A DNA stretch of 64,000 nt. It comes from Todiramphus chloris collaris. Its lineage: Eukaryota; Chordata; Aves; Coraciiformes; Alcedinidae. The notes beneath the pieces are model-generated. The model saw only the letters and a program-made list of their open reading frames with translations. It did not search any database and was not told where the DNA came from. The stretch lies in assembly GCA_025345505.1 (NCBI GenBank), contig JANVCC010000125.1:3851670-3915669 (forward strand), in the 5' to 3' direction. Within the stretch, counting starts at the first letter, position 1. Every line of letters starts with the position of its first letter. Below are positions 4,901 to 53,857 of the stretch, piece after piece. A program made the translations under genes and the position numbers.

Positions 4901-7900
4901 ACCCTGTGGGATAGACCAGCTGGGTGGTAAAGCCAGACTGCACCCAGAGTGCAGTGAGCAGTGTGTAGGGCATCAAGGGGAGAGCTGTCTAGAAAAGATG
5001 GAATGATGAATAACATAGACCTGGTACAGAGAAGATGTAGATGTCAACCACTGAGGGCAATGTGCAGGGCAGGAACAGACTGTACTTGTGTAGCCAGGCT
5101 TGCCAAGATTGGAAAGGGCAGTCAGCAAACATCAGAAAGACCAGAGCACTTTTAGTAATGTGACAGTGAATGATGTTCAGCACTGATGAATGCCAGCCTA
5201 AGAGGGGAAAATTAAAATGGCTCGTACAGCTCACGTGACTCCACATTTGGCACACAAGTTCAACAGACAGACTTGAACAGCCCTAGAAAACCACTGCTCA
5301 TTGCAACGATGCCTTCCAAAATAGCAAACAAGATATTAGGAAGCACAACGAACCGGGCAATAAATAACACAAGGTTGCCAGTTTGGCACCACTTACCAGC
5401 TCCAGCCTCACTTAGAAGGAAAGGATTAATTGATGTCCGTGCTAATGCAATATGGCCAGCGAGTGCCAGCGCCTTTGTTGTAGATGGGAACAACGTGGCA
5501 GAGGCAGGTGGCACTTCAGTGGCACTCCTGTCCCCGTATCTCAGAGGCTAGGGTCCTGCCTCACCTCGTTTGAAGGTCACCAAGCAGCAGAGAACCTGCA
5601 ATACATAGCCAGCTGCTCAGCCATCCCTTCAACTCAACCTGGTGCTGTCCTGACACCCCAGGAGAAAACCCACCTCTGAAACAAAAGTGCTGGCTTCTCA
5701 CAGTTCTTCCAAGGCCATCATGGCAGTCTTTTTGATGGCACACAACAATAGATGCTCTAACTCCCCGGGCGTCGGGAGAAAAAGGCTAGCAAGAGGTACT
5801 AATATAATGGTGTTTAACCCAAACCTCACCACTGATGCAAAATCAATTAATGCTTCTCTTTCAGGGGGTATGGGAGAATGGAGAAAAGCAAAGAAAGCTC
5901 AGACAGACCGAGAATTGAAACCAAGACTGTTCACCATGGTGTGACAACTGAATGCGTCTAGCGGGGATGCGCCGGTGCCCTGGGGACACCAAACCTCTAA
6001 AAATGCATGATACAGCACTGTCCTCTGTGTGACTGTGACTGAGGAGGGGATGATGGTACTGCGATACCAAAGATACCCAACTTGTCCCTCAGCCAGGACC
6101 AGACCTCCTCTGTGTTGCCCAGCTTCCACCCTGAAATCCTTCTGGGCTGCCTTCTGCCCGCAGCAAGGGCTGCAATCCCACAAGGTCTTCCCAGCCCCAG
6201 CAGCTCACGGCAGGAAGAAACAAGAAAAATGCTCCATCTGACTTCTTCTCTCAGCAAAGGTCCAGGGTAAAGTACCAGTGTCACAGACATGGGACTGGGA
6301 CAACAGGGAAGGACCACTGCACCCTGAGTGGTGGTACCTTGAGGGAGGGACAAGGAGAGAAAAATGCTGCCAGACGATCTAGTCTGGCAGGATCTGTTTG
6401 AGTGTGGTTGTAAAATATCTTGTGCTTCTGGAAAAGCACCCAGGGGAGAGGAAAGCTGTGCATGAAAGAAATGCTGTTCACGCTTTTCTTTGGAGGTGTT
6501 TGAAAGTCATTCAAAATGAGACACCAGTTCATTTACAGCTCATAGAAATCAGCAGTGAAGTCAGTTGACAACCAATTTCCAATAGCTGGGGAGCTATCCC
6601 ATAAGCAAATGACCTCACTCACCAAATCCCTCAAGTGTGTCTGGGGGAAGACTACCTTTATTTAAACCCCACTGATTCACGAGAAGCTGAGCTTGGGTCT
6701 CTTTCCTATGAGGTGACATCCCAGAAGGAAGTAATAAACTTTCTACTATGGTCTGAATAAAAGGAAGGAAGTTCCTCTGAATCTTAACAAATGAGTTGTA
6801 AAAAGTTGTGACATTCAGCAGCACCTGGAGTTAAATGGGAAGACTCAAGACTAGAAGACACAAAGTCCTTAATTCTCAGCTAGGGAGACAGGGAACTGGT
6901 AGAGAACTGCATGGCTGTTTGCATTTAAAGCTTTTTATTCACTGGTTCAGCAGTTCTGCTGTGGCATTTATTTTTAATGCTTTATTTGTGCAATTTGACT
7001 TTCTAATGGCAACACCTGAAGTCACCTTCCTTAACCCTTCACAGTGATATAAAATAGAAAGAACTAAAGCAACAAGGCTTATCCTTGTCAGACCTCAGAA
7101 GGAGATGACTCCCTCTTAAAGACTTGGCACCAACATGCAAAGCTGTAGGATTTCCTTTTATTTCCTCCAGATGGGAGGACCTAATCCCAAAAGTCCTTGC
7201 ATCCCAATGCTGAGACTCATAAGCATGAGCTGAAATCAGAGAGGCAGAGAAGTCATGGGGTTTGCTTTTAGTTTTTTCACCCCTTGTTATTTTCTGGCTG
7301 CAGTTAGCAAAGAATAAAAAGGAGAGAAATGCCTCCTGTGACAACCAAAATGCTCCAGAGAGGTCATTTTTAGGGCTATTTCTAAGGATAAAGCCAAATA
7401 TAGGGACTGATGCTAATGGAGTGACTTTTGGACCCTGGCTGCTGGCAGAACCTGCTAATCAAATCAGGCTAAAGAGCTGAAATTTGCTCTTGTTTATAGG
7501 GATTTTTGAAATGAGACTAAATATGACATTCTGCCGAGACACCACAGAGCTAGACATCCTTCATTTTGCCTCCTTACTGGTCTCCCACCCTCCCTTCAAC
7601 ACCACTCCCCACTGCTTCCACCCCATGCAAAAAGAATAAAGAGGCACTTCTGTTCTCATCTGAGTTTTGTCAAGAAAGACCCAAATCCCTGAAAACCACA
7701 GGGATGGAGACTCACCAGGAGTAGTTTTGCATGTGTTGGGCAAAGGGGCTGCTTTTTGCACCCCCTTCTGCTGCAATGATTGGGTACGGCCAAGTTCTTG
7801 GCCAAGAGCGAGCCACCAAATTCATTTCATGCCTGACAAATTGAAGCATTCCAAAGGCACTTTGGTTCACCAAAAACCTGATCAGCACAGAGGACAGGGA

Positions 7901-21612: not shown

Positions 21613-22077
<465 letters not shown>

Positions 22078-37942: not shown

Positions 37943-38281
37943 ACAGAAAAGGATTTGCAGACAAGCTGCCTTCTCACATCTCTTGTCCTAAAATGAAGCC
38001 AAAGTCATCTTTACCATGCTCAGTGGAGCAACCTGCCCAGAGGAACCTGTTGCCACAGTATGTAAGGAAGGTCACGTATAACCTTGCATTTGGAAACTAT
38101 GAAAGTTGATTTAGAATTCATCAGTAACCTTATCACCAAATATTTGTGCCAGGAAAGGAGGAGATGGATTTGTTTCCTGCTGCGATGCTGGGAATTAACA
38201 GAGGATATCAAAAGGAAAGCTTAGAGATGTTAAATGTAATGACGTTGGGTGAAATAACCTCACTCAATCCGTGGCTCTTCA
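37943..38281 (+). repeat. Left arm of a long inverted repeat
   Basis: This arm and the reverse complement of 38940-39280 align over about 340 bp. The core of about 318 bp has roughly nine mismatches that I counted by eye (about 97% identity), eight of them transitions. A one-base length difference occurs near the outer end. Neither arm is CR1 or any other family I recognise. Confidence 0.95.
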
Positions 38282-38939
38282 GCAGAAACTCAGGGAAATT
38301 AACAGAGCAATGAGGCACATCACTCCTTTTGCAAAATGCCTTCCTTTTAATGCCTACAATGACTGCATGACTTTCATGAAGAAGAAGTCATATAAGGTGA
38401 ATCTCACTGAGATACTTTCATTGTCCTTTCTATCTTTCCTGCTCTGTAAGCAAGGCCAAGGCAACACAACCCTACTGAAAGCAACAGGGTAAGTTCTTCA
38501 AATCCTCATACCATGAAGATGCCACGGCCTGATTCCTTTGCTCTCATGGACAGAAGCTTTCAAACTCAGAGGGGCTACCCAAAAGTACCTGACAATTTGT
38601 TAGGACTACTGCTAATCCCATACCTAACACTCCAACAGTGGATAAACAAACTCAAGAAACCCATAAATGCTGCAGACTCCTTGCATGCCACAAATCCTTG
38701 CATTTGGCAGCTACTCAACCTGTTCCTCTTTGTACACACCTCAAGATCCATCTACCTCCGCTTCCTTCTGAGCATCACAAAAACAGAACCAAACAAGTGC
38801 CCCCAACCAAGGCACACGGATAAAAAAGCAGATAACCACGGCATGGTTTCCTCTGGGAACAAACATGTTGTGCTTACAACGGTGCCAAAGGCAAATCTGC
38901 TGAGCTCAGTCTAATCTGCTGCACAACTGACAATGTCCA
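38282..38939. other. 658-bp spacer of the inverted repeat
   Basis: Unique-looking sequence between the arms. It contains a 133-codon open frame (38513-38914, plus strand) without any motif, domain or codon pattern that would support a gene. I treat that frame as chance. Confidence 0.6.
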
Positions 38940-39280
38940 TTGAAGAGCCATGGATTGAGCAAGGTTCTTTCATCCAACGTCATTACATTTAACATCTCTA
39001 AGCTTTCCTTTTGATATCCTCTGTTAATTCCCAGCATCGCAGCAGGAAACAAATCCATCTCCTCCTTTCCTGGCACAAATATTTGGTGATAAGGTTACTG
39101 ATGAATTCTAAATCAACTTTCGTAGTTTCCAAATGCAAGGTTATACGTGACCTTCCTTACATACTATGACAACAGGTTCCTCTGGGCAGGTTGCTCCACT
39201 GAGCATGATAAAGATGACTTTGGCTTCATTTTAGGACAAGAGATGTGAGAAGGCAGCTTGTCTACCTTTGCCTTTTCTGT
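38940..39280 (-). repeat. Right arm of a long inverted repeat
   Basis: Reverse complement of 37943-38281. The similarity starts abruptly at 38940 ('tgaagagcca') and ends at 39280 ('ccttttctgt'). No target-site duplication is evident at the outer ends. Confidence 0.95.
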
Positions 39281-53782: not shown

Positions 53783-53857
53783 CTTCTGCACAGCCCCGTA
53801 TCTCTGGATGGCATCGGACAGCTGGTTCTTCAGCCTGTCCAGCTGAAGTCGCTCTTG
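53783..53857 (-). CDS. TSNARE1: TSNARE1 internal exon, Habc-helix part
   Basis: Exon of 75 bp, exactly 25 codons, phase 0 at both ends. The acceptor is CCCAAACAG and the donor is AAG followed by GTGAGG. It encodes QERLQLDRLKNQLSDAIQRY followed by GAVQK, the syntaxin signature in which a 'QERLQxDRL' helix runs into a 'YxxVQ' segment; syntaxin 7 and 12 have the same arrangement just before the linker to the SNARE motif. The intron to the upstream exon is 3,642 bp and the intron to the next exon is 1,357 bp. The longer open frame around it (53657-53977) is intron read-through. No break or frameshift is seen. Confidence 0.88.

Follow-up and report, generated by a model that had tools for sequence, protein, structure and literature searches.

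A pair of inverted arms of about 340 bp within a putative intron of a syntaxin-like gene of Todiramphus chloris collaris, probably a local inverted duplication

In the window, by which we mean the whole 64,000-nucleotide stretch of Todiramphus chloris collaris DNA that was analyzed (C88:3851670-3915669), two nearly identical arms lie in opposite orientation on either side of a single-copy spacer. We consider it quite probable that a single local event, an inverted duplication through template switching or break-induced copying, gave rise to the pair. The left arm, arm A, occupies positions 37943 to 38281 of the plus strand (339 bp) and is the reverse complement of arm B, the inverted copy on the minus strand at 38941 to 39280 (340 bp), with 95.9% identity over 340 columns. 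The spacer fills the 659 bp from 38282 to 38940. A blastn search of the window with one arm returned the same identity over the same 340 columns with an E value of about 3e-158, and alignment and blastn together confirm the two reverse-complement arms of about 340 bp described in an earlier note on this DNA. The coordinates given there hold for arm A and for the end of arm B at 39280, while the start of arm B is at 38941 and not at 38940.

Most of the alignment is an ungapped core, which pairs 37959-38281 with 38941-39263 and contains nine mismatches and no indels. Eight of these mismatches are transitions and one is a transversion, as the earlier count of nine, nearly all transitions, had it; the core is 323 bp long rather than the 318 bp given before. 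All 340 columns of the arm alignment contain 13 mismatches and one 1-base gap. At the outer end of arm A (37943 to 37958), the 10 terminal bases are identical to those of arm B and are followed by a block in which the arms differ, with 6 bases in arm A (37953 to 37958) and 7 bases in arm B (39264 to 39270). A 148-bp portion of the arms is free of mismatches (38101 to 38248, with its partner at 38974 to 39121), and no other exact inverted match in the window between sites up to 3 kb apart is as long. As a baseline, the whole window was shuffled 10 times by mononucleotides, which gave longest matches of 14 to 16 bp, with lengths below 14 bp not counted. In the alignment and its flanks, the similarity of the arms stops abruptly on both sides, in line with the sharp ends that had been described.

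We searched one arm and the spacer against the window's own assembly, which comprises 1,173,753,469 bases in 889 contigs. Arm A matched two places in these 1.17 Gb at E values up to 0.001, its own and that of arm B, and the spacer had one match at E values up to 1, in a search that skips very common words and thus excludes recent close copies, not every ancient relative. Since both arm matches are found here and the spacer is matched once, the event appears to be local. Old, diverged relatives of arm A may exist, and so may a wider segmental duplication. A comparison of arm A with the window plus 16 further stretches of the assembly likewise gave no match at E values up to 0.001 besides the two arms. 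The window and the stretch C88:3840001-3850000 contain repeats which we take to be CR1-like, and these copies match one another and not arm A. This comparison bears out the earlier statement that the arms are not CR1, and a pair of CR1 LINEs was rejected because arm A has no similarity to the CR1-like copies. No Rfam family reached its gathering score anywhere in the window, and a known structured RNA was rejected on this ground. The six open reading frames of the arms and spacer had no Pfam match, to a transposase or otherwise, at E values up to 1, and so coding arms or a coding spacer were rejected as well. The earlier remark that the arms match no known family thus agrees with the Rfam result and with the Pfam result for these six frames. 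As expected, neither the pair nor a 30-base word taken from the arm was matched in a plasmid collection or in viral contigs.

Two close inverted copies of an otherwise single-copy sequence are what a local inverted duplication would leave, and the copy numbers in the assembly, together with the 3% divergence, uphold the earlier suggestion that an inverted duplication took place here some time ago. During replication or break repair, a polymerase would have copied about 340 bp of single-copy intron off the opposite strand or the folded-back nascent strand, placed the copy in reversed orientation about 660 bp away, and then resumed its own template, as in template switching or microhomology-mediated break-induced replication. 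Afterwards, the arms would have diverged, largely neutrally, by about 3%; we infer the neutrality of this divergence along with the mechanism of origin and the age. A core with no indels and with transitions at eight of nine mismatches looks like drift and unlike raw read error. The K2P distance between the arms is 0.0286. We divided half of this distance by the avian intron rate of 2-3.9e-9 substitutions/site/year given in PMC2946954, and the pair would then be about 3.7 to 7.1 My old, provided that the arms never exchanged sequence.

The junctions appear by eye to be blunt or nearly so in the flanks, and no inverted microhomology is evident at them by eye. We read the differing block at the outer end as a copying scar. 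At the left edge of arm A, the word CAGAAA begins with the second base of the arm (37944 to 37949, plus strand), and it is found again one base past the right edge (38283 to 38288, plus strand), a 6-bp direct repeat of the kind that a target duplication or microhomology would give if arm A had been inserted. At random position pairs, 20,000 for each setting, at least six shared bases were seen in 3.2% of cases with an 8-bp context, 5.0% with 9 bp and 10.1% with 12 bp, for a word that had been spotted before the test, and the edges of arm B share 2 to 4 bp in the same test. The sequence at these edges weakly suggests that the left arm is the copy. In arm B, the differing block taken with its preceding base reads GCAAA, where arm A has TTTGC. 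Sharing of five bases would occur by chance in about 1.6% of cases, and a micro-inversion by template switching is a possible reading of these letters.

The distribution of the mismatches runs counter to uniform drift, which predicts no clustering, and it brings in the alternative that the inverted repeat is older and that gene conversion, or template switching between the arms time and again, has preserved their likeness. At the inner end, a stretch of 23 bp holds five of the nine core mismatches (p about 0.008); the mismatch-free 148 bp at the center has a p of about 0.037, and the mean distance of mismatches to the nearest end has a p of about 0.05, each by a test picked post hoc. The outer arm end also differs by a block, and conversion between palindrome arms has been reported on mammalian sex chromosomes, in the accounts given by PMC3723533 and PMC8981503. 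However, the clustering statistics rest on nine sites, and a distance of 0.029 can be explained without conversion. The polarity of the transitions, with G or C in arm A at six of eight, was not significant (two-sided p of 0.29), and error-prone synthesis near the junctions could likewise gather changes at the ends. We regard continued exchange between the arms as rather unlikely. Its fuller form, in which the pair is older than its divergence implies, arm-to-arm templating holds the middle near-identical while the ends drift, and the hairpin is upheld by mutation mechanics and not by selection, strikes us as improbable.

One could also take the pair for a foldback or terminal-inverted-repeat transposon, since a foldback element has a similar outline of long inverted arms with a unique middle, or for two opposed copies of one repeat. 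The earlier note had proposed a search of one arm in the same genome and had taken many dispersed copies as the sign of an ordinary foldback transposon. The search of the own assembly, with very common words skipped, gave the two arms of the pair and no such dispersed copies. Around the pair, we found no target-site duplication, as the 25-bp outer flanks share words of at most 4 bp at positions that do not match. With no target duplication, no family match and no Pfam match in the six reading frames, a dispersed foldback transposon or a pair of opposed repeats is very unlikely.

The local inverted duplication appears to lie within a minus-strand syntaxin-like gene, as judged from three coding exons. 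The upstream exon (53783 to 53857, QERLQLDRLKNQLSDAIQRYGAVQK) is preceded by AG and followed by GT, with edges inferred from the sequence, and its translation ends in ...YGAVQK. The frame of this exon has a weak match to Syntaxin_2 with an E value of 0.002, which is under the Pfam cut-off. The downstream exon (21826 to 21982, minus strand, upstream edge approximate) ends in ...EEAIQQIE next to a GT donor and had no Pfam match on its own. The third exon, a SNARE exon with the frame FADSIEANIETASSNVESANEQLAKASQHQ, scored 38.8 bits against a cut-off of 26.8; it is also on the minus strand, at C88:3823116-3823217, outside the window and 28.5 kb from its start. Searches of the PDB gave nothing usable for either exon in the window: the best match of the upstream frame was an unrelated repeat protein (E value of 0.0086), with Syntaxin-12 at 0.84, and the downstream exon matched phosphatase chains only, at 0.48 or worse. 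With the exons near 53.8 kb and 21.9 kb and the SNARE exon outside the window all on one strand, the pair would be intronic. Between 21.9 and 53.8 kb there may be a further exon that went unrecognised, and the pair would be intronic even so. The host gene may be TSNARE1, the name given in the earlier note. The note had placed the pair in a TSNARE1 intron; the putative intron of a minus-strand syntaxin-like gene stands on the SNARE exon and the Syntaxin_2 match. In the literature, we found nothing joining TSNARE1 and inverted repeats.

We predicted the fold of the 1,338-nt minus-strand transcript of the pair. The full stem was obtained, with a predicted energy of -812 kcal/mol that has no shuffle baseline at this length. 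In the predicted pairing of the minus-strand core, 314 pairs are Watson-Crick and 5 are G-U; of the 4 non-pairs, three are A-C. The plus-strand core would have 314 Watson-Crick pairs, 3 G-U pairs and 6 non-pairs. A stem of over 300 bp in the pre-mRNA had been expected from the sequence, and the predicted fold agrees with it in giving a near-perfect 323-bp stem. Upon transcription of the minus strand, the intron would fold into this stem with a 659-nt loop, and the resulting nuclear double-stranded RNA may be edited by ADAR enzymes before the intron is discarded, without a selected function. Long duplexes are ADAR substrates, and a long near-perfect duplex in the transcript is what the sequence predicts here. 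A-to-I editing of the hairpin is plausible, and double-stranded RNA without a selected function would be the most likely consequence of the pair. Our literature search found nothing combining A-to-I editing, inverted repeats, birds and double-stranded RNA, and for chicken, CR1 and ADAR together it found only a circular-RNA review.

The same predicted stem in the sense transcript, with four non-pairs in 323 bp, could be taken as a selected hairpin, either one that gives rise to small RNAs or one that affects how the host gene is spliced or elongated. PMC5080714 describes lower expression and impeded RNA polymerase II for transcripts with inverted SINEs. However, such pairs can arise by mutation alone, and no Rfam match was found. 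A selected hairpin seems highly improbable to us. An assembly or library artefact is hardly credible: fold-back chimeras do produce inverted copies, but nine substitutions (eight of them transitions) without an indel in 323 bp, a single-copy 659-bp spacer and distinct flanks outside both arms argue against a fold-back read, as the 3% divergence alone had already been taken to do.

As to the stability of the DNA, Alu inverted repeats in wild-type yeast rearrange about 20-fold less when the spacer is lengthened from 12 to 200 bp and about 31-fold less when it is lengthened to 1.5 kb, according to PMC10164571. For the cdc13 mutant, in which long single-stranded DNA is present, the same paper reports no effect of the spacer on rearrangement. 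By analogy with yeast, the 659-bp spacer argues for modest fragility of the pair, single-stranded regions excepted.

Among known systems, we compared the local inverted duplication with template-switch mutations of great apes, in which local sequence is copied as its reverse complement and the gold-standard inserts presented in PMC7954356 reach at most 128 nt, with a median of 12 nt. The pair is like these mutations in that nearby sequence has been copied as a reverse complement, giving hairpin-capable arms, and unlike those inserts of at most 128 nt in that the copy is about 340 bp long and 659 bp away. Because about 340 bp exceeds the ape maximum, a longer-tract process, for instance break-induced replication, would be needed. 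Human fold-back inverted duplications have spacers of 766 to 70,466 bp in the text of PMC3907307 and of 724 bp in a row of its table. They share with the pair a single-copy spacer between the non-inverted and the inverted copy, and 659 bp is just under their range. However, the table rows show duplications of 10 kb to megabases, mostly with loss of a chromosome end, whereas the event here is interstitial and 340 bp in size. Inverted microhomology of 2 to 8 bp is given there for 13 of the 18 fold-back junctions outside interspersed repeats, and thus for most of them, whereas none is evident here.

Small inverted triplications, as described in PMC13334657, have medians of 148 bp for the flanking copies and 160 bp for the inverted copy. 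They too are short inverted copies, often within genes, with an inverted fragment of 20 bp to several kb. However, in that description a third, direct copy is present and the spacer has a median of 30 bp, whereas the pair here has a 659-bp spacer and no third copy. We rejected a small inverted triplication because none of the 14-mers of arm A recurs in other parts of the window and no third copy was found in the assembly; the pair may be the remnant of a triplication after deletion. Triplications are presented as a source of inverted variants in the ODIRA model (PMC10766186). Like the inverted SINE or Alu pairs in transcripts of PMC5080714, the arms would pair within one transcript into a duplex of about 300 bp, a candidate editing substrate if expressed; unlike such pairs, they are single-copy and belong to no repeat family. 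Microinversions flanked by inverted repeats have been described (PMC8755829), and PMC8794818 treats template switching and RNA hairpins together.

We would class the pair as an intermediate-sized local inverted duplication, and it looks like a copying accident, real but ordinary. Birds are not known to have dense Alu-like SINE pairs, and for this reason single-copy pairs could be a notable supply of long intronic double-stranded RNA in birds. The pair would be a clean and datable case of a long intronic hairpin made in one step in a vertebrate, without a transposon and at a size above the ape maximum of 128 nt reported for the gold-standard inserts. As a single locus, its importance is modest.

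The local background of inverted pairs was sampled in 16 stretches of the same genome, two of them beside the window, with 137,416 readable bases in total. Six of the 16 stretches contain N, heavily so in L005 and L009, and L006 and L007 are near-duplicates. Among the matches listed (at most six per stretch, E values up to 1e-5), no inverted pair of at least 300 bp at 95% identity or more was present in the 16 stretches, a sample too small to give a rate. The highest-identity long inverted pair among these matches measures 432 bp at 88% identity and is found in C88:3840001-3850000 (L003). It consists of opposed copies of the common CR1-like repeat at positions 2407 to 2838 and 7411 to 7833 of that stretch, close to the window. 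The two near-duplicates come from contig C2 (14.125 Mb) and contig C3 (14.120 Mb), in which one sequence recurs at almost identical coordinates, with 99.4% identity over 9.7 kb between C2:500001-510000 (L006) and C3:500001-510000 (L007). With these contigs, the assembly may have retained two haplotypes, or one chromosome twice.
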